Shown here one piece after another: positions 8,184 through 53,205 of a DNA stretch of 64,000 nucleotides; within the stretch, counting starts at the first letter, position 1; each line of letters opens with the position of its first letter. The notes under the pieces are model-generated. The model was not told where the DNA came from. It saw only the letters and a program-made list of their open reading frames with translations, and did no database searches. The position numbers and the translations under genes were made by a program. The DNA is taken from positions 310,001-374,000 of the forward strand of contig NZ_VFPL01000002.1 of NCBI RefSeq assembly GCF_006716645.1, given 5' to 3'. The DNA comes from Arcticibacter tournemirensis. GTDB lineage: Bacteria; Bacteroidota; Bacteroidia; Sphingobacteriales; Sphingobacteriaceae.

Positions 8184-9998
8184 TTAATAACCTGGATTTT
8201 GAACAAGCGCTTTATTCAAGGTCATATCATAAATTGGAATAGGCAGAAGTTCAGTACGGAAACTAACATTATTTGTCCATGCTACCATAGGGTCTGTCAT
8301 TCCCATTGCTTTTCCTTCTACTGCGTACTGCTTAATTACAGCCTCAAAGTTGCCCCAGCGAATAAGGTCGGGCCGACGTGAGGTTTCGAAACATAACTCC
8401 CTGGCCCTCTCATCTTTTATGGCCTGGAACAACGCCTCTTTCGAAGAGGTTTGATCCGCTGTAAGATCAGCACCGTCTGCTGATGTTATTGCAGCCACGG
8501 CAGTAGCGCCGCTTCCCCCTCCGCCACTAATGGTAACCGTAGGCGACACAGTGTAATAAGGGCCTGTTTTCGTCAATTTCGCCGGTTCATCAAGGGTTAT
8601 TGCCACCACCTTACCGCCATTTATCATTGCTGTTGCAGTAGCTCCGCCACTGATCGTAACTGTCGGCACAGATGTATAATTACTTCCTTGATTCGTAACA
8701 ACAATCGCCCTTAAACGATTACCATATAGAATCCCATGTCCCCTTCTTCTTACCTGGTTAACATACTCATATGCTCCGCCAGGTCCCCTTAGCTCATTTT
8801 CAGCTTCGGCGATCATCAGTAATACATCTGAATACCGCAGCACGGGGAAGTTTTGTCCCGATATATTATTACCTTTTGGTGTAAGTGTCTCGTATTCCCG
8901 CCTCCACTTACCGGCATATCTCCGGAATAGATCTGTTACAGGCGTATAAACCGCCTTTGGTTGATTTCCCCAACTATATGTAGCGATATTCCAGTCGCGG
9001 CGTATATCCTGTGACGCCTTTGGAGAAGTTGAGCTTAGTGCCTCCTCTCCATACAAATTATACAGTTTTTTCGATGCCATCAGTAATCCGCCACTCTTTC
9101 CCTTCTCAAGATCAACACATAAAATACCGCACCTCGCACCTATATAGTAGGTATATTCCTGATTGTTTCCTGTGCCATTTCCATTATATTCAACCTCCCA
9201 GATACTCTCATTCAAATCGTATTCGTCGCGGGCGTATCTTTTAAAGATCTCCCTGTAATCAGGTTCCAATGAGTGTTTGCCCGAATCCTTCACTTTAAGC
9301 GCCCATTTTAATGATTCTTCATACTTCGACTTATCATTCAGGGGATGTCCTGCCATTTTTAAATAAACCCGTGCAAGGATCCCTCTAACGGCCGACTTTG
9401 ACACCCTGCCTCCAAACGTTGCACCTCCTTCTCCGGCCTCATCAACTAAGCCTTCGGCCTCGATCATGTCGGTTACAATTTTATCGTACACTTCCTTCAT
9501 TGGAGTCCGCGGTACATTTAAATTAGTGATCGACGGATTAGCGTCAAGCATCAGCGGAACATCGCCGAAATTGCTCACAAGCAGGAAATAGAAGTATGCC
9601 CTCAGGAACAAAGCCTGACCTTTGATCCTGTCCCTCGGCGTTTCATCGAGTCCCGGATTATCTGTTCCAGCAAGCACACTATTTGCCCGGTAAATCCCCT
9701 GGTATAAGAATTTCCAAAAATTGGTTATGTACACATCGGCGGGGCTATATACGTATATGGTAGAGTTAGACGACCCTGTTCTGTCATACTCTACATCGGT
9801 GGTGGCATTGATCCAATAGGGCCACACATCCTGGTATACCATTCCAAGGTCATCATAAACTCCAGCCAGGCCTGTTTCAAGCTGGGCTATAGTTTTATAG
9901 TCCGGGGAAATAAAATTCGTCGGCTCTGTGTCGAGAAACTTATTACACGAAGTACTGCCTAACAGTACCACTATTATTATCATCAAATATTTTTTCAT
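8184..9998 (-). CDS. SusD/RagB-family nutrient-binding outer membrane lipoprotein
   Basis: The 604-residue product starts with a lipoprotein signal ending STSC, followed by NKFLDTEPTNF, the classic SusD N-terminus. The TPR-like helices (GQALFLRAYFYFLLVSNFGDVPL, then YDKIVTDMIEAE) and the late block VLRYSDVLLMIAEAENEL are typical, as is the tail LPIPIYDMTLN. It caps the SusC barrel and binds the oligosaccharide at the cell surface. It lies 11 bp after susC. An unusual insertion at about residues 430-509 carries two copies of a Gly/Thr-rich beta repeat (YTSVPTVTISGG and YTVSPTVTISGGGG) between the VNQVRRRG helix and the conserved KDERARELCFE helix, which makes the protein longer than most SusD proteins (about 500-550). 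Confidence 0.95.
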   Translation of the reverse strand: MKKYLMIIIVVLLGSTSCNKFLDTEPTNFISPDYKTIAQLETGLAGVYDDLGMVYQDVWPYWINATTDVEYDRTGSSNSTIYVYSPADVYITNFWKFLYQGIYRANSVLAGTDNPGLDETPRDRIKGQALFLRAYFYFLLVSNFGDVPLMLDANPSITNLNVPRTPMKEVYDKIVTDMIEAEGLVDEAGEGGATFGGRVSKSAVRGILARVYLKMAGHPLNDKSKYEESLKWALKVKDSGKHSLEPDYREIFKRYARDEYDLNESIWEVEYNGNGTGNNQEYTYYIGARCGILCVDLEKGKSGGLLMASKKLYNLYGEEALSSTSPKASQDIRRDWNIATYSWGNQPKAVYTPVTDLFRRYAGKWRREYETLTPKGNNISGQNFPVLRYSDVLLMIAEAENELRGPGGAYEYVNQVRRRGHGILYGNRLRAIVVTNQGSNYTSVPTVTISGGATATAMINGGKVVAITLDEPAKLTKTGPYYTVSPTVTISGGGGSGATAVAAITSADGADLTADQTSSKEALFQAIKDERARELCFETSRRPDLIRWGNFEAVIKQYAVEGKAMGMTDPMVAWTNNVSFRTELLPIPIYDMTLNKALVQNPGY

Positions 9999-10009: not shown

Positions 10010-13000
10010 TTATAATGATGTACTAACTCCAAAAACTATTGTCCGCGCTAAAGGATAGGACGCAAAGTCGAATCCAGGGGTCAGAACAGAATGCCGCGTA
10101 GAAACATCCGGATTTGAGCCTGAATACTTTGTCCATGTGTGCAGATTTTGCGCCGATACATACGCCCGAAGCGTCTTAAGCTTCATGCTTCTCAGTAACG
10201 ACGCGTCAAAATTGTAACCAAGAGAAACGGTTTTCAGTCGCAGGAATGAACCATCTTCTACAACGCGACTAGAAAAGTAAGCATCTCTCTGACCACCTGT
10301 GCGGAACATTGTATTACTCGGATTATCTGGCTGCCAGCGGTTTGTATAGCTCGCATACTGGTTTAAAGCTCTTGTGCGCTTGGCGTTACCTTCAAATATT
10401 AGCTTGTTGGCATTAACAATATCGTTGCCATATGACCATTGAAAGAAGACGTTCAAATCAAAGCCCTTATAATTAAAATTGTTGTTAAAGCCTCCTGTAT
10501 GTATAGGGGTACCGCGCCCGATCACAGTAAAATCGTTTAAATCTACTTTAAGATCCCCGTTAATATCCCTATATTTAATATCACCAGGTTGTATAGTTGC
10601 CCTTGCCTGCCCATTTGATGGAATATTATCTTTAAGGATATACTGTTGCTGCAAATTAAGATCGAAATCTTCATACTGATACACCCCATCCCAGATCAAA
10701 CCATGCATTTGGCCGGCCGACTGCCCCACTGGTGAGATATACGATGGCACACTCGAGAAATCGCTATCAAAGGCAACCTGGCTTGAAATAGATGAGATAT
10801 CCTCATACAGTTCAAGAATCTTATTCTTATTAAAGCTAATATTAAAGTTGGTGTTCCACTTAAAGTTCGGCTTGTCGACATTGACGGTATTAAGGGTAAG
10901 CTCAAGTCCCTGGTTCTGCAGCTTACCAACATTCTTATAAGCCACGGCACGGTTATAAAGATTCAGGAGCCCTGTAGAATAAGGCAGGTTGGCTTCGATA
11001 AGAAGGTCCTTAGTAGTTTTTCTGTATACATCCGCTGTAAGTTGTACACGATTTTTCAGCAGAGCCAGATCATATCCTATATTAGCCTGTACGGTCGTCT
11101 CCCATTTTAAATCCGGATTACCATAACTTGCTAAAACGGAACCCCGGCTTGGACTGGCACTGTTATTAAAGGAATACCCACCAAATAAAGGTATCTGAAG
11201 CTGCGTTACATACGGAAAGTCAGAAACCCTGTTGTTACCGGTTGAACCATAACTAACACGCAGTTTAGCATCCGTAACAACATCTGCATCCTTCAGGAAT
11301 GCTTCTTCTTTCATCCTCCAGGAGAGCGCTGCTGAGGGAAAGAAAGCCCAGCGACTGCCTGGCGCGAACTTAGAAGAACCATCATAACGAAGGGATGAGG
11401 TCAGGTAATATTTAGACTTGTAATTATAATTAACCCGGCCGAGGAACGATGCCATTGTCCAGCGCGACCTTGAAGAATAGTTAATATTTGTCAGAGCCTC
11501 GTCCAGACCGTCTATACCTAAGGATTCGTTTAATACCTGCTGGGCTTCAAGACCATAGTTTTCATTCGTTTGTTTTTGGATAATAAACCCGCCTACCACG
11601 TTTAAATTATGAAGTTTGTTGAACGTTTTTTGATAGGTAAGAATGTTCTCGTTTAACCAGGTATTAATCGGATTGTGGGTAACCGAACCATTCACGCCCT
11701 CCACTCGCCGGTAATTCCCATTGGCAGTTAATGAATTATTGAAGATATTCCTTTGCACCTCCATACTGTTTATACCTCCCGAAGAACGGAAAGTCAGACC
11801 AGGCATCAGGTTAATGGAGACCCATGCGTTAGCACTTAAATTATTTACATAAGTTTCCCGGATCTCATTTTTGGCTGAAATGATAGGATTAACACGAAAG
11901 TCTCCCGCAACTGCCTCAGGATCAAAAAACTCCTCTATTAACGATTCTCCGCTTGCAGCGACCGGCCTGAAGCCCCAAACATTATACATAAGCGCAAGAC
12001 TACTGTAAGTATATTTATAGGCGGTCTCTGATGCTATTGATCCATACGTTTCGGTTGCACTATAGTTGGCGTTGGCCCCTATCTTAACCGCCTTACTAAG
12101 TGTTTGATCAAGGCTAAACCTACCCTGGTATCTCCGGAATCCTGAGTTAAGGATAAGCCCGGTTTGATCCAATACGTTTCCGGATATAGAATAAATAGTG
12201 TTATTGGCACCTCCCCTAATGGATATTTCATGGTTATGGGAAGGAGAACTTTGATAGATCTCATCCTGGACGTTAATGGTTTCTACATTCCGGTAATCTT
12301 CCAAAGGCATTTTATTTAAATATGCATTCTGTGCATAAACCGGCTCAAGCTCAGCCTGATACTTCACAAATTCATAGGCGTTCATCATATCGATCTGCTT
12401 CGGATTCTTAGAAAACCCGTAATAACCGTTATAATTTATAACAGGCGCACCGATCTTACCCTTCTTAGTGGTAATGATAATTACGCCGTTAGCACCACGA
12501 GCACCATAAATTGCCGTGGCTGAAGCATCTTTAAGGACTTCCATTGATTCGATATCCGAAGAATTAATGGAATTGCTGTTCGCGTCTTCGGAAGGAAAGC
12601 CATCGATAACATATAATGGAGATGCATTCTGAGTAAGTGTACCCGCACCGCGGATAACAATATTGTTGTTCGAACCAGGCTGACCATCGTTAGCAGCTAC
12701 AGAAACCCCGGCAACTCTACCAGCTAACGCTTCGTCAAATGACTTAACAGGGGCCTGAACCAGCTCCTTCATTTTAACCTGCTCAACCGATCCTGTAAGA
12801 TCCTTCCGTTTAGATGTTCCATATCCTATCTGAACTACCACCTCATCCAACTGGCTGTTCGACTCCTTCAACACTACGTTAATTATTCTGTTATTGCCCA
12901 CCAGAACTTCTTTGGTCTCAAACCCTATGTAGTGAAATACAAGAACATTCTGACTGCCATTCACTCGTAGGCTGTAGGCGCCTTTAACATCCGTTACAAC

Positions 13001-13231
13001 CGCGGCCTTCGTGTTTTTGACCCTGACCGTCACGCCCGGAAGCGACTCTCCCTTGCCGTCTCTGACAACACCATTAACTGTAAATGATGAGGCAGAAGTC
13101 GCCGGCACCTGTCCATGAACAGTATCAGTAAAGAACGATACTATTAAAACAAGGGCGGCCACTTTTAACCTCTTTTGATGCTCCATTTGAATCAAATGAA
13201 AACATCTGAATAATTTGGTAAAAACTCTCAT
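10010..13231 (-). CDS. SusC/RagA-family TonB-dependent outer membrane transporter
   Basis: The 1073-residue product has a signal peptide (about residues 16-41, ending VHGQ), a carboxypeptidase-D-like regulatory domain (VNGVVRDGKGESLPGVTVRVKN, about 52-130), a plug domain starting near VVVQIGYGTSKRKDLTGSV with ESMEVLKDASATAIYGARGANGVI, and a long C-terminal beta barrel. It imports glycan oligomers through the outer membrane with energy from TonB-ExbBD. The first ATG (13231) precedes a second, at codon 16 (MEHQKRLK), which gives a cleaner signal peptide, so the true start may be 13186. No FecR/sigma box or N-terminal extension is present, so control is likely by the AraC regulator rather than an ECF sigma factor. 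Confidence 0.95.
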   Translation of the reverse strand: MRVFTKLFRCFHLIQMEHQKRLKVAALVLIVSFFTDTVHGQVPATSASSFTVNGVVRDGKGESLPGVTVRVKNTKAAVVTDVKGAYSLRVNGSQNVLVFHYIGFETKEVLVGNNRIINVVLKESNSQLDEVVVQIGYGTSKRKDLTGSVEQVKMKELVQAPVKSFDEALAGRVAGVSVAANDGQPGSNNNIVIRGAGTLTQNASPLYVIDGFPSEDANSNSINSSDIESMEVLKDASATAIYGARGANGVIIITTKKGKIGAPVINYNGYYGFSKNPKQIDMMNAYEFVKYQAELEPVYAQNAYLNKMPLEDYRNVETINVQDEIYQSSPSHNHEISIRGGANNTIYSISGNVLDQTGLILNSGFRRYQGRFSLDQTLSKAVKIGANANYSATETYGSIASETAYKYTYSSLALMYNVWGFRPVAASGESLIEEFFDPEAVAGDFRVNPIISAKNEIRETYVNNLSANAWVSINLMPGLTFRSSGGINSMEVQRNIFNNSLTANGNYRRVEGVNGSVTHNPINTWLNENILTYQKTFNKLHNLNVVGGFIIQKQTNENYGLEAQQVLNESLGIDGLDEALTNINYSSRSRWTMASFLGRVNYNYKSKYYLTSSLRYDGSSKFAPGSRWAFFPSAALSWRMKEEAFLKDADVVTDAKLRVSYGSTGNNRVSDFPYVTQLQIPLFGGYSFNNSASPSRGSVLASYGNPDLKWETTVQANIGYDLALLKNRVQLTADVYRKTTKDLLIEANLPYSTGLLNLYNRAVAYKNVGKLQNQGLELTLNTVNVDKPNFKWNTNFNISFNKNKILELYEDISSISSQVAFDSDFSSVPSYISPVGQSAGQMHGLIWDGVYQYEDFDLNLQQQYILKDNIPSNGQARATIQPGDIKYRDINGDLKVDLNDFTVIGRGTPIHTGGFNNNFNYKGFDLNVFFQWSYGNDIVNANKLIFEGNAKRTRALNQYASYTNRWQPDNPSNTMFRTGGQRDAYFSSRVVEDGSFLRLKTVSLGYNFDASLLRSMKLKTLRAYVSAQNLHTWTKYSGSNPDVSTRHSVLTPGFDFASYPLARTIVFGVSTSL

Positions 13232-13384: not shown

Positions 13385-14575
13385 TCAAAAGGCACTCATT
13401 ACGACGCCCTTATTACTATCAATAATGTTACATACCATTTCAGCTGATTTCGCTGAGCGGTACTGATCTTCGGGCGTATTTATTACATAGTCTACCAGCC
13501 GATCTATACTGGATGTTGCTACGTGCTGACGGGTATCTGACGATGCATAATAGATATATACTGCTCCGTCTTCATCAGCAATCCACCCGTTACTAAATAA
13601 AACATTTGACACATCGCCCACTCTTTCATCGCCTTCCGGGGCCATAAAGTAACCTGCTGGTTTGTGAATAACCGCTGTCAGGTCGTTTAGACTCGTCATA
13701 AACATATAAAGCACATACCGCAGGCCCGCAGCAGTATTGCGCACGCCATGAGCTAGATGCAACCATCCATGCGGTGTCTTAATCGGAGCTGGGCCCAGCC
13801 CATTCTTTGCCTCGTAAACGGTATGATACATTTTCCTGTCGATCACCGTTTCCTCTTCGATGAAGGCATTCTCAATACTATCGCATAAGCCGAAACCAAT
13901 TCCTCCCCCTTTACCCGCGTCAATAAAACTATCCTGCGGACGGGTATAAAAGGCGTATTTCCCATCTACAAATTCAGGATGTAACACGACGTTCCTTTGC
14001 TGCGGTGAAGGGGTTTTAAGATCCGGCAGTCTCTCCCATTTTACTAGATCTGTTGTCCGGGCAATCCCACATTGTGCCACTGCTGCTGACTGATCTCCTT
14101 CAGGGGCGAATAGATCACGGCGTTCGGTACAGAACAAGCCATATATCCATCCGTCTTCGTGTTTTACCAGGCGCATATCGTACACGTTGGTATCCGGGGT
14201 ATCGGTTTGAGGCATAACGATAGGATATTCCCAAAACCTGAAATTATCGATGCCATTATCACTTTCAGCCACTGCAAAAAATGACTTCCTGTCGAGACCT
14301 TCCACTCTGGCTACGATCACATACTTTCCTCTGAACTTTATAGCTCCCGAATTGAAAGTGGCATTTATACCAAAACGCTCCAGTAAAAAAGGATTCTTTT
14401 CATAATTCAGGTCATACCGCCATTCCAAAGGCACGTGTGCCGCTGTGAGGACCGGATATTGATATCGCTCATAAATCCCGTTACCAAGGTTGTCTTGAAC
14501 ATTTTCTCTTCTTGTTAACTCCTTATAGGCCCGCTGTAATTCATATAATCGCTTTTCAAAGCTGACATTCTCCAT
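13385..14575 (-). CDS. GH130 glycoside phosphorylase, mannosylglucose phosphorylase-like
   Basis: The 396-residue cytoplasmic protein matches the GH130_1 group: [38 protein letters not shown] with the proton-donor Asp at residue 133, [17 protein letters not shown], and [19 protein letters not shown]. Family enzymes cleave Man-beta-1,4-Glc with phosphate to give mannose 1-phosphate and glucose. The length equals that of characterised members. It is the first gene of the minus-strand PUL run and lies opposite the AraC regulator across a 466-bp intergenic region. Mannobiose 2-epimerase, which usually partners it in mannan catabolism, is not in the window, so the disaccharide may come directly from a glucomannan-like or other Man-Glc polymer. 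Confidence 0.85.
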
Positions 14576-14706
14576 TCCTTTTCTCTATTACTGGTTAAAA
14601 TCTACTTGCCAAAATATACCTCTCGTACTATCGGAAAATCGTCAGATTCATATAGTAGTGGAGGCGGTTTATTTAATTGTAAATCTCCACATCGTTCCGG
14701 TAAAGC

Positions 14707-14723
14707 ACTAATACTTTTTTAGC
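14707..14723 (+). promoter_or_regulatory. Putative PUL operator, copy 1
   Basis: The 17-bp sequence ACTAATACTTTTTTAGC has a dyad-like outline (CTAA, seven bases, TTAG). An exact copy lies 200 bp downstream at 14907, and a 14-of-17 match lies at 20261 before the GH140-like gene. The placement in both divergent control regions of the locus suggests binding by the local AraC-type regulator. Confidence 0.5.
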
Positions 14724-14906
14724 TAAACCTTATATAATACTGTGACGTTCTACTTTCAGCCGACTCTCTGGTATTGGACAACGGGCATTATTTCGATAGA
14801 TACCCAAACAAGGAATGCGCTATACGCACTTAAAAGGCAGGTAAATGTTCGAATGGATTCAAATTCAAATCGCAAATAGAATGCATTTCTAAATACACTA
14901 AAAGAT

Positions 14907-14923
14907 ACTAATACTTTTTTAGC
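14907..14923 (+). promoter_or_regulatory. Putative PUL operator, copy 2
   Basis: This is an exact repeat of the 17-bp motif at 14707-14723, located 119 bp before the AraC start codon. The identical 200-bp spacing from copy 1, about 19 helical turns, would allow DNA looping between two bound dimers. That is an inference from spacing only. Confidence 0.5.
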
Positions 14924-15041
14924 ACTTTGACTACTTCTTTTTTTTAATCAACTATAAGCTTATCTTTAGCTGTGATGTTTTTGTCGGCAACTTATAGATG
15001 ACAAAGCATCTCTTGTCTATACTAATAACCATTGTAAGGCC

Positions 15042-15917
15042 ATGAACAAATTAATGAAAGAAATTACTCCTTTAACGCCGAATGACTGTTTCACCATCTT
15101 CTCCCGTGTTAAAAAAGAATTCAATTTCCCGCTTCATTTTCACGAAGAATATGAGTTAAACTTAATTATGAATGCGAGTGGCGCAAAGCGGATTGTAGGA
15201 GACCATATTTCTGTGATAGACGACCTTGAACTGGTATTGGTCGGGCCCAATTTACCACACGCCTGGTTCACCCATAAATGCACAAGCGAGGCTATAACAG
15301 AGCTGACAATACAATGGCACAAGGATTTATTTGACGAAAAACTCCTTAAAAGAAATCAACTCTCCTTTATCAGGAAAATGTTCGAACAAAGCGTAAGAGG
15401 CATCTCATTTACTAAAGAAACAATTCAATCAGTGTTACCAAGAATTCTTTCGTTAAGTCAGCGAAATGGCTTTGATTCTGTGATGGATCTGATCAACTTA
15501 CTACATGACCTGTCGACATCAAGAAATATGTTAACCCTTTCTGATTCTACATTTGTTAACAATCAAAACTTCAATTACAACAGCCGGCGATTAGAGAAGG
15601 TATTTGAGTTTATGAATAACAATTACCACAAGGAAATATCTCTTAAAGACATAGCAAACTTAATAGGAATGACGGAAGAGTCCTTCAGCAGGTTCATTAA
15701 AAAGCGAACCGGCAACACATTCATTAACACATTAAACGAAATAAGATTAGGACACGCTTCCCGGATGCTTATTGATACAACCCACTCTATTACTGAAATA
15801 TCATATCACTGTGGCTTTAACAATATTTCGAACTTCAACAGGCTGTTTAAGAAGAAAAAAAGCTGTACACCAAAAGAATTCAGAGAGAACTATTCGGGGA
15901 ACAGGGTTTTCATATAG
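15042..15917 (+). CDS. AraC-family transcriptional regulator with cupin sensor domain
   Basis: The 291-residue protein has an N-terminal cupin-like sensor (FPLHFHEEYELNLIMNASG, then LVLVGPNLPHAWF, about residues 20-90) and a C-terminal double helix-turn-helix (about 190-288: ISLKDIANLIGMTEESFSRFIKKRTG, then SITEISYHCGFNNISNFNRLFKKKKSCTPKEFR). AraC proteins of this type bind a sugar in the cupin and activate nearby catabolic genes. It sits between the two minus-strand PUL operons and is transcribed towards the GH5 operon. Together with the repeated 17-bp motifs, this makes it the likely local regulator of the PUL. No hybrid two-component sensor or ECF sigma/anti-sigma pair is present here. Confidence 0.9.
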   Translation: MNKLMKEITPLTPNDCFTIFSRVKKEFNFPLHFHEEYELNLIMNASGAKRIVGDHISVIDDLELVLVGPNLPHAWFTHKCTSEAITELTIQWHKDLFDEKLLKRNQLSFIRKMFEQSVRGISFTKETIQSVLPRILSLSQRNGFDSVMDLINLLHDLSTSRNMLTLSDSTFVNNQNFNYNSRRLEKVFEFMNNNYHKEISLKDIANLIGMTEESFSRFIKKRTGNTFINTLNEIRLGHASRMLIDTTHSITEISYHCGFNNISNFNRLFKKKKSCTPKEFRENYSGNRVFI

Positions 15918-15951
15918 CAACCTTAATAAAGGATGTGACTGTAGTGACTCG

Positions 15952-15987
15952 TCAGCACCCTGTCTAACCCAGACACCCGACTGCTGA
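15952..15987. terminator. Possible bidirectional hairpin between araC-type gene and GH5 gene
   Basis: Nested inverted repeats lie in the 74-bp space between two convergent genes: TCAGCA at 15952 pairs with TGCTGA at 15982, and an inner TGTCT at 15961 pairs with AGACA at 15971. There is no T-run, so termination by this hairpin is uncertain. Confidence 0.35.
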
Positions 15988-15991
15988 TGGT

Positions 15992-17071
15992 TTACCTGCA
16001 GCTTTGTGGATCTGTCGATATATAGTTTTTAAGCACCTGCATTTGCGGTCTGTCAACTCCGCCTCGTGGTTGAATAGCCAGTCTGTAGCTTCCCCATCTC
16101 GGCCCTGCCGACCAGTAGGTTCCGTTTATACAATTGGCTTTCATATATTTTAACATATTATCCAATACCGGGAGCCATCGGGAATCATCATCAGGAATAC
16201 CATACTCGCCAATAAAGCCTCTCTTCTTATTGGCCGTTAGCCAATCAACAAAGGGTTTTATTCGATTTACGCCAGTTTGAGCATTTGCCTTCTCCTCGTC
16301 ATAACTACCATCATAAGTTCCTGCAGAAGTGTCATCAAAATAAATGTGAGCTTCATAGATCAACTTCTGCGAAGGGTCAGTTAGGTTCTTTAGATTATCG
16401 CTGACACGAGGCCAACGCTCTGCCGAACTATAACTATCGCCAGCAACGAGGATAGGTGTTTCCGTATCTATAGTTCTTATTTTTTCTATAACAGGCTGGA
16501 TAATATTGAACCACGATGTCGGCGATGGCATATTAAAAGGCTCATTCATTACACCATAAGCCCAAATGTTTTCCCTATCTTTAAATACCCCGGCAAGTTT
16601 TCCCCAAAAATCGACGAAGGCAGCAGTTGGTAACGTCGGGCTCCCTATTATTTCTTTATTCCCATTTACCATCCTCCTCGCAAAATTGTGGACATCAGGG
16701 ATAATCAAAATATCCCGTGCCGCAGCTGCATCTATAAAATCAGTAAGCCTTTTCAGTTCTACGGGATCCAAAGGACCATTTAAGGCTGGTTGCAACCGTT
16801 CCCATAAAAACGGCAACCTGACAAGGCGCATATTCTTTGATTTGAAATAATCAAGGTCGGTAACAAGGGGATAACTGTAATCCTGTCGATATTGTCCGGG
16901 AACATTAGAACCAAACTCTGCGCCAGACAAATTCGTGCCGAAGGGCTGGGGCTCTATACTAACAATCTCGCCTTCCTCTACCGGCTTTACGGCAGTATTC
17001 ACCTTATCTTTACGGCAAGATAGAATCCCGATCATCGCGGCTATTAACAAAACCGATATCACTTTATTCAT
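15992..17071 (-). CDS. GH5-family endo-glycanase lipoprotein
   Basis: The 359-residue product has a lipoprotein signal (ending GILSC at residue 19), then a GH5 barrel: FGTNLSGAEFG, MRLVRLPFLWERLQP, IIPDVHNFARR, the acid/base Glu177 in VMNEPF, AGDSYSSAERWP, YEAHIYFDD, and the nucleophile Glu289 in FIGEYGIPDDD. GH5 covers cellulases, mannanases and related endo-enzymes; this sequence resembles the endoglucanase-like branch, but specificity is not readable. It is the last gene of the operon GH5, acetylesterase, GH5, and is a close paralogue of the gene at 19164. As a lipoprotein it may work on the cell surface, cutting the polymer before SusCD uptake. Confidence 0.9.
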   Translation of the reverse strand: MNKVISVLLIAAMIGILSCRKDKVNTAVKPVEEGEIVSIEPQPFGTNLSGAEFGSNVPGQYRQDYSYPLVTDLDYFKSKNMRLVRLPFLWERLQPALNGPLDPVELKRLTDFIDAAAARDILIIPDVHNFARRMVNGNKEIIGSPTLPTAAFVDFWGKLAGVFKDRENIWAYGVMNEPFNMPSPTSWFNIIQPVIEKIRTIDTETPILVAGDSYSSAERWPRVSDNLKNLTDPSQKLIYEAHIYFDDTSAGTYDGSYDEEKANAQTGVNRIKPFVDWLTANKKRGFIGEYGIPDDDSRWLPVLDNMLKYMKANCINGTYWSAGPRWGSYRLAIQPRGGVDRPQMQVLKNYISTDPQSCR

Positions 17072-17127
17072 AATTACTATTGATTTATAGCTATTCAGAT
17101 ACAGCCTCCCGACTCAGCAGCTTACCC

Positions 17128-19107
17128 CTATCGAATAGAATATTTCACCCGATCTGTGATTCCATTCCAGTGGTCGGTGCGGAAAGGAGCAGCAGGCAAT
17201 CCCGCTTCATTATAAAGATTTCCATCACTGGCGTCGTCGGCCCATCCATACCTTACGGCTACAGGATTCGGAACCTTACTATGAGCGACAACTACTTTAT
17301 CACCATCTATTGTAACTTTTGCATAATAGAATTTTTGGTCAGAGCCGGCAATTTCAAACCCTTTTACATATCCGTATTTATCTTTCGCCCACAAACCGCC
17401 TTCCGCGTACTTAAAGCTCAGAATCGCCTGGTTATCCCTAATTTGTATGGATTTAAAAACTGGACCTGAAAAAGCAACTGGTTTTTTATAAGTTTTATTT
17501 AAAGCAACAGCAGCGAGGCGCTTCCCAACATCCTGTTTGTTTCTGGGATGAATATCATTGACATCGCCTATATCAATGGTTACTGCCATGCCGGTATTTG
17601 GCAGCGCCAACGCAGCGGACTGGGCTTCACGCAGTTCAGCCCAGGAACTTCCGTTGTTGCTATTCCCGTTTGCACCCTTCCAGCTCGAAAGCTGAACAAA
17701 GTAGAAAGGAAAGTCGCCCTGATGCCAATGATGCCGCCAATCGTTAATCAGCAACGGAAAAGTGGTCCTGTATTGGAAAGCGCGATTGGCATTGTTCTCA
17801 CCCTGATACCAGATCACTCCTTTTATGGCGAAATCAGTTAATGGGTTTATCATTGCGTTGAATAACAGAGTGGGGAAATCGTTAGGATTGCCAACAGTTC
17901 CCGTATTCGTGCCCGAGTTCTCATATACCTCCTCAACTTGATATTTCCATTCTCCCGATAAAGGATACATCTTGTCTGAAATTGTAATTTTCAATTCATC
18001 ACTTGTTCCGTAAACACCACCTCCTCCTCCGTTATCCTCTATGCGGACAGCTATCACGTTTTTCCCTTCTTTCAACACTACGGCTGAAATGGGATAGACA
18101 CGTCTTTCGTTATATTTGTCATGCATCTGTCCCACCTCTATTCCGTTTACGTAGGTAACATCAGAATCATCGATACGTGCAAGTTCAAGAATCGCCGGTT
18201 TCCCTGCATCATCTGCAGAAAGCACTATCGTTTTCCGAAACCACACTACGCCATCGAAATTCTCTATGGATTGCTCCCACAAACCGGGAAGCTTCGCTTG
18301 ATGCCATTCTCCATCATTGAATGATAACTCCTTCCATGTTGTGGTACTTCCTATGCCGGGAAAGCCACCCTGAAGTTCTTTGATTCGTTTAATCACCTGC
18401 TCTTTCCGCTGTTTTATCAGCAATTGAAGATCAGCGTCTTTCTTTGTTGCGACAGTTCCATCTTTAAACAAATCACTTTTCTCTAATGACGTCTGACTAA
18501 TCCAGGTTTCTATATCAGTCCCGCCCCATGAGGAATGAACTAAGCCAATAGGAACATGAAGCTCTTTATATAGCTCCCTGGCGTAAAAATATCCTACGGC
18601 AGAAAACCTTGCTACGTCCTCCCCGTCTGCTATTTTCCATGAAACAGACCTGTCTAAATCGCTTTTTGGATGATAAGCCATTGCTTTAGGCACTTCCAAA
18701 TGGCGTATCTCATTATACTTAGCATCTCTAATTTCAGAAGTTGCATTTTGGCTGCTGCTTACGGCAAACTCCATATTTGATTGACCAGAACACACCCACA
18801 CATCGCCCATCAATATATCTGAAAGAGTAATCATGTTCTTACCTTTAACAGTAAGAGAATAGGGGCCTCCGGCCTTTTCAGCATCTAGCTCAAGCCTCCA
18901 TTTCCCGTCTTTACCAGTCGTTGTAGTCTTCAGTTGATTGCGAAACTTGACTGTAATCTTTTCACCTTTATCAGCCCAGCCCCAAACAGGTATGGGCTGG
19001 TCACGCTGTAAAACCATATTGTTACCAAACAATACAGGCAGACGAATATCTGCAAACGTCGCCGAAGCAAAAAAAACAGTAGCGAATGAGAGGATACAGA
19101 CTTTCAT
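17128..19107 (-). CDS. Sialate O-acetylesterase-like carbohydrate esterase
   Basis: The product (about 659 residues from the ATG at 19107) has a signal peptide (MKVCILSFATVFFASATFA). The family signature is complete: LFGNNMVLQRDQPIPVWGWA, VWVCSGQSNMEF with the nucleophile Ser, GLVHSSWGGTDIETWIS, GVIWYQGENNANRA, and DVNDIHPRNKQDVGKRL with the catalytic His. A jelly-roll-like segment (about 260-390) is inserted between the halves, as is usual in this family. Many bacterial members remove O-acetyl groups from plant or microbial glycans rather than sialic acid. The frame extends to 19140, but the codon-12 ATG starts the signal peptide. It lies 56 bp from each of two GH5 genes, so deacetylation and backbone cutting are probably coupled. 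Confidence 0.88.
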   Translation of the reverse strand: MKVCILSFATVFFASATFADIRLPVLFGNNMVLQRDQPIPVWGWADKGEKITVKFRNQLKTTTTGKDGKWRLELDAEKAGGPYSLTVKGKNMITLSDILMGDVWVCSGQSNMEFAVSSSQNATSEIRDAKYNEIRHLEVPKAMAYHPKSDLDRSVSWKIADGEDVARFSAVGYFYARELYKELHVPIGLVHSSWGGTDIETWISQTSLEKSDLFKDGTVATKKDADLQLLIKQRKEQVIKRIKELQGGFPGIGSTTTWKELSFNDGEWHQAKLPGLWEQSIENFDGVVWFRKTIVLSADDAGKPAILELARIDDSDVTYVNGIEVGQMHDKYNERRVYPISAVVLKEGKNVIAVRIEDNGGGGGVYGTSDELKITISDKMYPLSGEWKYQVEEVYENSGTNTGTVGNPNDFPTLLFNAMINPLTDFAIKGVIWYQGENNANRAFQYRTTFPLLINDWRHHWHQGDFPFYFVQLSSWKGANGNSNNGSSWAELREAQSAALALPNTGMAVTIDIGDVNDIHPRNKQDVGKRLAAVALNKTYKKPVAFSGPVFKSIQIRDNQAILSFKYAEGGLWAKDKYGYVKGFEIAGSDQKFYYAKVTIDGDKVVVAHSKVPNPVAVRYGWADDASDGNLYNEAGLPAAPFRTDHWNGITDRVKYSIR

Positions 19108-19163
19108 GTAATAGAAATTAAACGGTCCAGTGTTTACCAAAACCCATCAAGTTTCAGAGACAT

Positions 19164-20189
19164 TTATTTCTTGTCTGCTGTCTTGTATTTTTCCAGAACT
19201 TTCATTTGAGGCCTGTCCTGTCCGTTCACCGGTTCCACGGCCAATTTATACTTTCCCCACATTGGTCCGGCAGCCCAGTAAGTACCATTTATGTCATTCT
19301 TTTTTAAATAGGCAAGGAAGTTATCAAGAGTAACCAGCCACCTTGGATCATTGTCGGGCACGCCATATTCACCAATAAATCCTCTCAAATTGTTTTTTTT
19401 CAGCCAATTGACAAACGGCACAGCTCGTACAATACCAGTACTTGGAGTCGCCATCTCCTTTTCATAGGTATTTCTGTATGAGCCGGAGGCGTCTTCATCA
19501 AAATAAATATGTCCTTCATATATCAGATTCCTTGAAGGATCTTTTAAATTCTTCAGATTTCCGCTCATCACTGGCCATCGTTCCGCAGAGCTCCAGCTAT
19601 CGCCGGCAACAATAATAGGAGTTCTGGTGTCAACGCTTCTTATCTGAGTAATAATCCCCTGGGCAATATTAAACCAAGGTGTGTTTTCTAAAAGATCGTG
19701 AGGCTCATTCATTATACCATAACCCCAAATGTTCGAATACGACCTGAACTCCCCCGCCAGCTTAGCCCAGGCATCTGCCACATGGGCGATACTGACTTCG
19801 GGCGAACCAATTATGTGTCTGGTTCCGTTTTCGTACCTGCGACAATAATTATGCATGTCGAGAATAACCCAAAGTCCTCTCTCTTTAGCATTATCAACAA
19901 AAGTCTTCATTCGTTTCAACTCCTCCACATCCAGGCTGCCGTTCAACTGAGGCTGAATCCGCTCCCATAAAAATGGCAACCTAAAAAGAGTAAGGCCTTT
20001 CGATTTAAAATAATCCAATTCCGCCGTAGTTGGATAGATATAGTTTTTATTATAAATCCCAGGTATTTTATCGTGGGCAAATTCTGCTCCTGCGAGGTTT
20101 ATACCGAAAGGCAAGTCAGACTGCTGCGCCATGCTGCCCTGAAATAACCCACTTATCAACAGTGCTGTTAATATAAATCGAAACATCAT
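19164..20189 (-). CDS. GH5-family endo-glycanase, secreted
   Basis: The 341-residue product has a cleavable signal peptide (ending GSMAQ) rather than a lipobox, so it is probably periplasmic or secreted. GH5 landmarks are FGINLAGAEFA, LFRLPFLWERIQP, LDMHNYCRRYENG, acid/base Glu162 in IMNEPHD, AGDSWSSAERWP, YEGHIYFDE, and nucleophile Glu274 in FIGEYGVPDND. It shares these blocks and the 112-residue spacing between catalytic glutamates with the GH5 lipoprotein at 15992, so the two arose by duplication. It is the first gene of its operon and lies opposite the GH140-like gene. Two ATG codons are adjacent at the start (20189 or 20186). Confidence 0.9.
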   Translation of the reverse strand: MMFRFILTALLISGLFQGSMAQQSDLPFGINLAGAEFAHDKIPGIYNKNYIYPTTAELDYFKSKGLTLFRLPFLWERIQPQLNGSLDVEELKRMKTFVDNAKERGLWVILDMHNYCRRYENGTRHIIGSPEVSIAHVADAWAKLAGEFRSYSNIWGYGIMNEPHDLLENTPWFNIAQGIITQIRSVDTRTPIIVAGDSWSSAERWPVMSGNLKNLKDPSRNLIYEGHIYFDEDASGSYRNTYEKEMATPSTGIVRAVPFVNWLKKNNLRGFIGEYGVPDNDPRWLVTLDNFLAYLKKNDINGTYWAAGPMWGKYKLAVEPVNGQDRPQMKVLEKYKTADKK

Positions 20190-20260
20190 ACTCTTAATTT
20201 TAATAGTTTTGAAGGCTTTGTATTGATATGGTCAAAGATAGGGCTGCAGCCATGTGTACC

Positions 20261-20277
20261 TATAATACTTTTATAGC
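20261..20277 (+). promoter_or_regulatory. Putative PUL operator, copy 3
   Basis: TATAATACTTTTATAGC matches 14 of 17 positions of the motif repeated before the AraC gene, and here the dyad is clearer (CTATAA, five bases, TTATAG). It lies in the 298-bp divergent region between the GH5 gene (start 20189) and the GH140-like gene (start 20488), where it could serve both promoters. I see no gene in the rest of this region. Confidence 0.5.
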
Positions 20278-20487
20278 TTATGATATGAATAAATTATCTT
20301 CTGATAAGAGCTACACAACCGAATCGCCGCGTACAAAACGCTCCTCCCCGAGATCTATACTTGAAATAATAAGCCGTCTCTGGTACTTTTTAATCATTTT
20401 GCTATCCTATCTTATCCCACTTTGATCATCCTCATCTGCAATATTTACTTTTGATTATCCTCTAAACATTTTTCAAGGACAGATCAA

Positions 20488-21906
20488 ATGATTAAGAAAA
20501 GTATACTGACGTCTACCTTCCTGTTACTCCTTCTAAACGGATATGCTCAGCATCTTAAAATCAGCGCGAGCAAGCGCTATATAGAAACACAGAATAAAAA
20601 GCCCTTTTTATGGATAGGCGACACGGCCTGGGAGTTATTTCATAAACTAACCCGGGAAGAAGCAGACATTTATTTAAGCAAAAGAGCACAGCAGGGCTTC
20701 ACTGTCGTACAAGCAGTTATATTGGCTGAAAACGATGGCTTGAGGACTCCAAATGCTTACGGCGATCTTCCATTGAATAATCTGTCTCCGGAATATCCAA
20801 ACGAAAAATATTTCGAACATGTTGACTATATCATAAACAAAGCGGAAGAACTGGGTTTATTCATCGCAATGCTACCCACCTGGGGAGATAAAGTATTCTC
20901 CAACCGCCCAGGGCCGGGCCCTGTGGTATTTAACGAGTTAAATTCCGGTATCTTCGGGGAATTCCTCGGAAGGCGGTACAGAGAGAAACCTGTAATTTGG
21001 GTATTAGGAGGTGACAGAAACATAGAAAACGACGAAGTTATGAACATTTGGCGCTCCATGGCAAGAGGCTTAAGTAAAGGGGACAACGGCAATCACCTTA
21101 TCACATATCATCCGGCCGGAGAAGCTTCTTCGTCTCAATGGTTTCAGAACGAGGAGTGGCTGGATTTTAACATGTATCAGAGCGGCCATGCCAGCCGTTT
21201 TATGAAAGTATACAAGTTTGCCGGGGACGATTATTCCAAGTTGCCGGTAAAACCGTTTCTTGAAGCCGAACCGGCCTATGAAGATATACCCGTTCAGTTC
21301 TGGAATTTCATAGACTGGAAAAACGTCAAAAAAGTACCGGATAGCATCTTAAACGCCGATAGCCTGCTAATTGATAGAAGCCATTTTAAAAAGGGCTTCT
21401 TTACAGATTATGATGTAAGGGTACACGCCTATTGGAACTTTCTTGCCGGAGCATGCGGTTACACCTATGGAAATAATGCAGTGTGGCAGATGTTTAAAAA
21501 AGGAGCTCCTTATACCATCCCATGTTTAACAGATTGGGAAGAAGCACTTGGCAGTCCCGGAGCCTATGACATGCAGCATGTTAAGAAACTATTTACATTA
21601 AGACCTTTTTCTCAAATAGTACCGTTTCAGGAGTTTATAAGAGGAGAGAACCCGGAAGATAGTACTCATATCAGAGCTGCCAGAGCTCAGGATAACTCCT
21701 TTGCCCTTGTTTATCTTTCAACGGGACAAACTGCCGACCTTAACATAAATCTTCTCAAAAGCAAAAAACTCCTCTTTTGGTGGTACGATCCCAGAAATGG
21801 GAGCCGATCGAAAACAAAAAAAGTGAGACCAGAGGTCCATCGGCAATTCTCCCCCCCGAGTTCAGAGTTCGGCAACGACTGGATTTTAGTATTTGATAGA
21901 AAATAA
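20488..21906 (+). CDS. GH140-like (DUF4038) glycoside hydrolase, secreted
   Basis: The 472-residue product has a signal peptide ending GYAQ. The DUF4038 barrel is clear: PFLWIGDTAWELFHKLTREEADIYLSKRAQQGFTVVQ, LFIAMLPTWGDKVF, FGEFLGRRYREKPVIWVLGGDR, and LEAEPAYEDIP. The C-terminal 70 residues (LLFWWYDPRNGS, then NDWILVFD) match the collagen-binding-like beta domain usual at the end of these proteins. The founding GH140 enzyme is an endo-apiosidase acting on rhamnogalacturonan II, but DUF4038 proteins are diverse and many PULs use them for other linkages. It is the only plus-strand enzyme of the locus. Sequence position and operator copy 3 tie it to the PUL. Confidence 0.82.
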   Translation: MIKKSILTSTFLLLLLNGYAQHLKISASKRYIETQNKKPFLWIGDTAWELFHKLTREEADIYLSKRAQQGFTVVQAVILAENDGLRTPNAYGDLPLNNLSPEYPNEKYFEHVDYIINKAEELGLFIAMLPTWGDKVFSNRPGPGPVVFNELNSGIFGEFLGRRYREKPVIWVLGGDRNIENDEVMNIWRSMARGLSKGDNGNHLITYHPAGEASSSQWFQNEEWLDFNMYQSGHASRFMKVYKFAGDDYSKLPVKPFLEAEPAYEDIPVQFWNFIDWKNVKKVPDSILNADSLLIDRSHFKKGFFTDYDVRVHAYWNFLAGACGYTYGNNAVWQMFKKGAPYTIPCLTDWEEALGSPGAYDMQHVKKLFTLRPFSQIVPFQEFIRGENPEDSTHIRAARAQDNSFALVYLSTGQTADLNINLLKSKKLLFWWYDPRNGSRSKTKKVRPEVHRQFSPPSSEFGNDWILVFDRK

Positions 21907-52183: not shown

Positions 52184-52969
52184 TTATTCGCTTCTGAAAC
52201 CAAAGGTGTACGTAGAGCACCAGCGATTGTAATCTGCCTTTTCCGCCGGCGCTATGTTAATAACCTTTATCATCCAGTCGCCAGAGCGGTTAAGCTTAAT
52301 ATAAATCTTGCCGTCTTCGTCGCTGATGCTTTCAGACGGAAAAACAGTACCATTAAGTGTCTTGGTGTATACTTCGGCCCTGATCTTAGCTAAAGGTTTC
52401 CCTTTAAACAATATCTGCGCAGTCAAATCCTCTCCATATTTCAATTTATACGGGTTCTGAAGCAGCACAAGTTCCAGATCGTGTCCCGTTTTTTCACTAT
52501 ATTCATTACCCGAAGGCTTTGCTGCCATCAATAAGGTCTTCAAAGCGAATATGTTGTTTATACTCATCTCCTCTTTATCACTCACTTTTCCAGACAGCTC
52601 TGGAAACCCTTCATCTGATAGTTGCCTGATAACATCTTCTCTATCTATTTCAGATTCGGATAATTCCTTTTTTGCGGTCACCATACATAATCCAGAGTTG
52701 TTCAGCTGAACCGATAAATGGCTCTCGGCGTCCTTATTCGCAGAAAGAAGGTTTATGGGTTTTCCACCGGCATATAAAGATGCGTCAGCAAGCTGTGAGA
52801 CAGGTAATTTCTTCGCTTTAACGGTGTCGAACCCTTTCCCGTAAAAAACTCCAACATCTGTCATCTGCCCCTTTTCAGGAAAAAATCCGCCAGGCATGAG
52901 GTAATAGCTTTGCGCATTAAGCAGATTAAACGAACATGTCAGTAACAACGAGCAGATCAGGTATTTCAT
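52184..52969 (-). CDS. DUF4198 periplasmic protein
   Basis: The 261-residue product has a signal peptide ending LLNAQ and matches DUF4198 (SYYLMPGGFFPEKGQ at the start; PYKLKYGEDLTAQILFKGKPLAKIRAEVYTKT and SDEDGKIYIKLNRSGDWMIKVI at the end). DUF4198 proteins are beta-rich, periplasmic and often near metal-uptake genes; their function is not settled. Here feoAB lies 1.6 kb further on the same strand, which is suggestive but weak. A TAAGTTTG promoter-like element lies at 52987-52994. Confidence 0.8.
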   Translation of the reverse strand: MKYLICSLLLTCSFNLLNAQSYYLMPGGFFPEKGQMTDVGVFYGKGFDTVKAKKLPVSQLADASLYAGGKPINLLSANKDAESHLSVQLNNSGLCMVTAKKELSESEIDREDVIRQLSDEGFPELSGKVSDKEEMSINNIFALKTLLMAAKPSGNEYSEKTGHDLELVLLQNPYKLKYGEDLTAQILFKGKPLAKIRAEVYTKTLNGTVFPSESISDEDGKIYIKLNRSGDWMIKVINIAPAEKADYNRWCSTYTFGFRSE

Positions 52970-52994: not shown

Positions 52995-53205
52995 CAAAGT
53001 TTATCAGGCGCATAAAACTCAATCTAATATTATTTTAGTTAAAAAGCGTTAATATTTACACTAGAGTTATACTAAATTGAGCCAGAACGCACAGTATGAA
53101 CTTTTTACTATACAGCGGTGTCCTGTTTTACAGGTAAAACCCGTCAGTCCGCCCCGCGCTTATTCGTGGCACGGAATTTATTTATCTAAGTAGATATTCT
53201 ACGAT

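Follow-up and report, generated by a model that had tools for sequence, protein, structure and literature searches.

In E. coli, AraC occupies two asymmetric 17-bp half-sites beside the promoter, araI1 and araI2, which form a tandem with 21-bp spacing, and a remote half-site about 210 bp away, araO2, is used to form a loop. Among Bacteroidota, the AraC-family protein RhaR of Bacteroides is reported to have an operator with 21-bp periodicity (PMC3870299), and the tandem sites of HTCS regulators in Bacteroides thetaiotaomicron are 21 bp apart on average (PMC3878776). A beta-mannan PUL of Muricauda sp. MAR_2010_75 is induced by mannan and its AraC-type factor FG28_RS02325 is expressed; the accessible sections of that report describe neither an operator nor any test of what the AraC protein does, and our comparison with this PUL is by gene content alone (PMC9860051).

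We analyzed a window of 64,000 nucleotides from Arcticibacter tournemirensis (C2:310001-374000), together with the whole genome of two contigs and 5.66 Mb. The gene at 15042..15917 (+) encodes an AraC-family one-component regulator of 291 aa (Pfam HTH_18, 4.1e-22) with a predicted cupin-like N-terminal domain and a double helix-turn-helix (HTH). Its AlphaFold2 model (mean pLDDT 86.8) shows a beta-domain at the N terminus followed by two HTHs at the C terminus, and Foldseek matched the model to AraC-family structures, including the RhaR and AraC regulatory domains, so that profile, model and structural matches agree on the C-terminal double HTH of the family. The 291 residues comprise an N-terminal sensor domain of the one-component type, with no histidine kinase or receiver, and as modelled the regulator is a one-component, non-membrane sensor. 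HTCS proteins are similar in their AraC-type DNA-binding domain, their tandem sites and their control of SusCD loci, alpha-mannan ones included, but they are membrane two-component hybrids with a periplasmic sensor and their mannan motifs concern alpha-mannan (PMC3878776).

To the left of the regulator gene lie a DUF5017 protein gene and, on the minus strand, genes for a GH130 4-O-beta-D-mannosyl-D-glucose phosphorylase (13385..14575; 3was, E = 1.5e-179), a SusC-like TonB-dependent transporter downstream of it after a 153 bp gap (10010..13231) and a SusD-like protein (8184..9998). On the other side is a minus-strand operon of GH5 (19164..20189; Pfam Cellulase, 8.9e-44), SASA-type carbohydrate esterase (17128..19140) and a further GH5 (15992..17071), followed by a GH140-type, apiosidase-like gene on the plus strand (20488..21906; Pfam Apiosidase, 4.3e-112). 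The combination that marks a beta-mannan PUL, a mannosylglucose phosphorylase GH130 with SusCD and GH5/GH26, was found here, and a GH130 homologue is present in 45 of 75 orthologous loci. Beta-mannan is the most likely substrate of the locus, given that the nearest solved structures to the GH130 protein are 4-O-beta-D-mannosyl-D-glucose phosphorylases. The Muricauda PUL resembles it with its GH130 mannosylglucose phosphorylase, GH26, GH5, SusCD and AraC-type factor (PMC9860051).

The 17-mer ACTAATACTTTTTTAGC (plus-strand letters) occurs exactly at 14707-14723 and 14907-14923, 200 bp apart, and a 14/17 copy with three mismatches, TATAATACTTTTATAGC, lies at 20261-20277. A sequence-only reading had reported these three copies, and our window scan confirmed them and found no other at up to three mismatches. 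Local duplication as the source of the two exact copies was rejected, their common stretch being only 17 nt with unrelated flanks; no tandem array and no match to a known RNA family were found. Dinucleotide shuffles of the window gave a mean of 0.46 matches and reached three in 1 of 100, a count that leaves some room for chance recurrence of an AT-rich word, and the window-only evidence for the motif is only moderate. Throughout the 5.66 Mb genome, perfect matches to the degenerate form WMTAATACTTTTWTAGC are exactly these three sites, in keeping with the expectation of few unrelated copies. Outside the window, a GPH-family symporter gene (-) and a GH5 gene (+) flank a fourth copy, ACTAATACTTTTTTAAC, which has one mismatch and lies 2.7 kb to the left (C2:307302, L031:12302); all four copies fall within 23 kb.

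For comparison we used 80 loci with relatives of the regulator from named genomes and 15 from relatives of this genome. At up to three mismatches, 21 copies of the unmodified 17-mer lie in the 350-bp regions before 59 AraC orthologues, spread over 17 loci and with 20 of them facing the same way, as against an expectation of 0.18 from dinucleotide shuffles and 0.15 predicted from the rest of the loci; at the same threshold the 17-mer was absent upstream of 10 paralogous AraC genes. A weight matrix located 122 sites in 62 upstream regions and 6.7 in shuffled ones. In 13 relatives with the regulator, 21 of the 43 genome-wide matches to TAATACTWTTTTDNC lie within 35 kb of it, where 0.66 would be expected. 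The motif is kept upstream of orthologous AraC and beta-mannan genes in several Bacteroidota families, and at the level of sequence comparative genomics shows both the motif and its link to the regulator. The proposed conservation in orthologous loci was thereby borne out (21 copies against about 0.2 expected), and the idea of a shared operator linked to the AraC regulator gained support from this conservation and from the near-absence of the motif elsewhere in the genome, which make it far stronger than the window by itself would allow. Chance recurrence was refuted by the orthologue and whole-genome tests; in view of the cross-family conservation and of the fixed placement and orientation described below, we give it a negligible probability.

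The same reading had noted a clearer dyad at 20261. The letters are there (CTATAA-N5-TTATAG, 20260-20276), but a dyad is not a property of the motif across conserved copies, whose correlation with the motif's own reverse complement is no better than that of permuted columns (p = 0.14), and the next motif upstream of promoter-type sites has the same orientation in 40 cases and the opposite one in 0. The palindrome model was rejected on these two results. A second, weaker half-site lies exactly 21 bp farther from the target gene (z = 5.5 at +21 in the 58 distal/promoter-type sites), and judged from the aligned sites the motif is an asymmetric AraC-type half-site in tandem, with the direct repeats about 21 bp apart that are seen in AraC-family operators. 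Tandem asymmetric 17-bp half-sites 21 bp apart by the promoter, plus a remote half-site, also make up the E. coli AraC system, which differs in sequence and sigma factor. RhaR is likewise a one-component activator of a sugar regulon in Bacteroidota with a direct-repeat operator, but it serves rhamnose and another sequence motif, each AraC group having its own, and the accessible part of its operator description does not mention an auxiliary upstream site (PMC3870299).

When sites were aligned on the motif, 53 of the 58 promoter-type sites had a TAnnTTTG box (at least 5/6) within a few bases of a fixed place, at offset -27 in 30 sites, at -28 in 23 and at any other offset in no more than 2, counts that are not independent since the loci share ancestry and that stand for a lower effective number of observations. 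In Bacteroidota, the housekeeping sigma factor has TAnnTTTG as its -7 box (PMC9723704). Because the -7 box is at a fixed distance and the second half-site lies 21 bp beyond, the motif is placed where a -33 element would be. Neither result is circular, because neither feature was used in training the weight matrix. In the direction of the target gene, a weak half-site comes first, followed after 21 bp by the strong half-site GnTAAAAWAGTATTA, after a further 19-20 bp by TAnnTTTG, and then by the start codon; orientation, -7 distance and tandem all emerge from the comparison of genomes. By sequence, the strong half-site sits over the -33 region, which is class II activator geometry: the proximal half-site keeps a fixed distance to the -7/-10 box and overlaps -33/-35, with boxes of 6/6 at 20261 and 4/6 at 14707 in the window. 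The motif contains TACTTTTT on the plus strand, and its use as the -7 box of the AraC gene itself was rejected, there being no fixed geometry toward AraC beyond the self-similarity of the motif.

A protein bound over the -33 region could also block polymerase, and a repression loop like that of araBAD could arise between paired sites that face the same way. However, no good -33 TTTG stands at the usual distance in the target promoters (GH5: 2/4), as expected if these depend on an activator, and the two characterized AraC-family sugar-use regulators named for E. coli and Bacteroides in the RhaR report are activators (PMC3870299). It is improbable, in our judgment, that the AraC-type protein binds but mainly represses, with mannan products relieving the repression, and we infer activation.

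In the window, the strong half-site of the predicted GH130 promoter (14707..14723, -; GCTAAAAAAGTATTAGT toward GH130) occupies a place equivalent to the 58 conserved promoter-type sites. A candidate weak second half-site lies 21 bp farther out (14728..14744, -; CCTTATATAATACTGTG on the plus strand), +21 being the best-scoring offset among 15-29 and weak as a single instance, and the candidate -7 box GAGATTTA (14680..14687, -) matches TAnnTTTG at 4/6 with an offset of -27. The strong half-site before the GH5-esterase-GH5 operon (20261..20277, -) is paired with a candidate weak one (20282..20298, -; GATATGAATAAATTATC on the plus strand), again at a best offset of +21, and with the 6/6 -7 box TATCTTTG at -28 (20233..20240, -); in two relatives the stretch separating the GH5 and GH140 orthologues carries the same site with a 6/6 box (L184:8473, L186:2438). 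The copy at C2:307302 faces the symporter with a poor -7 box, GAAATTTA (4/6). Relatives G035 and G011 show GAnnTTT-like -7 forms similar to the degenerate ones here. Ahead of a DUF4198 gene (52184-52969), the weak motif TCTAATATTATTTTAGT at 53023-53039 has a 5/6 -7 box at offset -28; hits of this kind are expected by chance.

The earlier proposal of one regulon holds in part: GH130 and the GH5 operon are tied by the shared operator, but on sequence grounds site 20261 probably does not act on GH140, since the conserved -7 box points to GH5 and GH140 has a separate complete Bacteroidota promoter (TTTG-N21-TACTTTTG, 20421..20453, +). That the motif mainly serves autoregulation of AraC is disfavored as well, in that it follows target promoters and the AraC-side copies mostly serve the divergent gene. 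At locus L147 the motif is 3' of AraC, before a symporter, and at L145 a SusC gene that is not next to AraC has paired sites before it.

Composite sites of motif plus -7 box with at most one mismatch occur in this genome only at the three promoters 14707, 20261 and C2:307302; composite matches with three mismatches are no commoner here than with a reversed-pattern control, and we claim no further regulon member. The site at C2:307302 is independently supported because three Elizabethkingia loci (L084, L085, L090) carry a homologous symporter gene directly beside AraC with the same operator. Targets of composite sites over all loci (n=73) were mainly SusC (31), GH26 (11), SSS (sodium:solute) symporter (10), GH5 (6) and GPH symporter (5) genes, along with one gene each for a GH130, an epimerase and a GDSL-like protein. 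Among the relatives, several strong copies of the motif show neither a -7 box nor an obvious mannan target. In one relative, G035, at least 5 operator copies extend over about 30 kb (C23:467872-498538; L140, L184, L185), some of them before a PQQ/cytochrome c dehydrogenase-like gene and a TIM-barrel sugar isomerase-like gene; on this sequence evidence its regulon is an enlarged one.

The 13 relative genomes with the regulator contain 35 composite sites (control 5). The 13 genomes without a full-length regulator in the first search contain 5 (control 3), and 3 of these 5 share a contig with a partial orthologue (G002:C165, G031:C165). The fixed distance between motif and promoter box is also what an extended promoter element would show, and binding of the AraC protein to the motif is a prediction from sequence; another factor, whether an alternative sigma factor or a further regulator at the locus, might read the motif with the AraC gene a mere neighbor. 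We regard this as still less probable than repression, because the motif occurs with this regulator and not ahead of its paralogues, composite sites are at background in genomes without the regulator apart from the exceptions just given, and a 21-bp tandem is typical of AraC-family sites. Binding by the regulator at 15042-15917 is what we infer.

Several loci deserve separate mention. The motif is absent from the paralogous AraC clade L097-L103, L106 (about 54-57% identity), most loci of which have a SASA-type esterase gene about 5 kb downstream; its aligned members (L099, L103) have GFTN instead of GFNN in the second HTH, and the clade probably has an operator of its own. L096 (Sphingobacterium, 57% identity, GFNN), counted among the ten paralogues, has no motif upstream of AraC; it belongs with the orthologues because the motif with a 6/6 -7 box precedes its neighboring SusC gene. 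The orthologue at G031:C165:18945-19511 (L268) looks broken, with one TGA and one TAA inside and only residues 102-291 aligning, and the operator upstream of it is retained (C165:18460). In two Bacteroidales/Prevotellaceae relatives, motif copies lie just 3' of AraC (L112:10880, L113:10882), in an orientation against the target-gene rule.

The site at 14907..14923 (-), 200 bp from 14707, has no -7 box at the conserved offset and is best read, from its sequence context, as an auxiliary copy. Auxiliary spacings in relatives are mostly 64-133 bp, with clusters at 76-77, 97-98, 108-111, 117-122 and 129-133 bp. With regulators collapsed at 80% identity, the best period was 10.95 bp (R = 0.64, p = 0.0005 versus jittered spacings); a collapse at 75% identity leaves only 7 groups and the phase is not significant. 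The 200 bp spacing in the window is longer than in relatives and out of phase. By analogy with araBAD a phased loop is plausible, suggested here only by the phased spacing, unlike in E. coli. We put forward tentatively, as a possibility rather short of even, that one-component AraC regulators of Bacteroidota mannan loci control the promoters of SusC, GH26 and symporter genes by an AraC-type DNA loop, formed between paired operators that face the same way, are helically phased and have a spacing of about 70-130 bp. The auxiliary site would then be part of the target promoter and not serve autoregulation, as the L145 SusC promoter with no AraC gene beside it indicates.

Taken together, the motif is very probably a half-site of the 15042-15917 regulator, which would bind in tandem and probably activate beta-mannan genes with a mannan-derived ligand. 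Each target promoter would offer the regulator 17-bp half-sites in tandem at 21-bp spacing, the strong one 19-20 bp upstream of TAnnTTTG and over the -33 region, and with the ligand present the regulator would probably recruit RNA polymerase with the housekeeping sigma factor. Genes for beta-mannan uptake and degradation would thus be switched on together, here from the promoters of GH130 (14707), the GH5-esterase-GH5 operon (20261) and, outside the window, the GPH-family symporter (C2:307302), and auxiliary copies such as 14907 would probably tune a promoter through regulator-regulator contact or DNA looping.

This kind of system is well known; a search of the open literature returned no earlier description of this operator, and operator and regulon appear to be undescribed there. 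The series GnTAAAAWAGTATTA, 19-20 bp, TAnnTTTG can be read as a code of operator plus promoter for a one-component regulator of beta-mannan use that is widespread among environmental Bacteroidota. The code predicts targets far from the regulator, such as the symporter promoter at a distance of 17 kb, and shows which promoter each divergent gene belongs to. It may be of use for annotating mannan regulons and for building mannan-inducible promoters in Bacteroidota.
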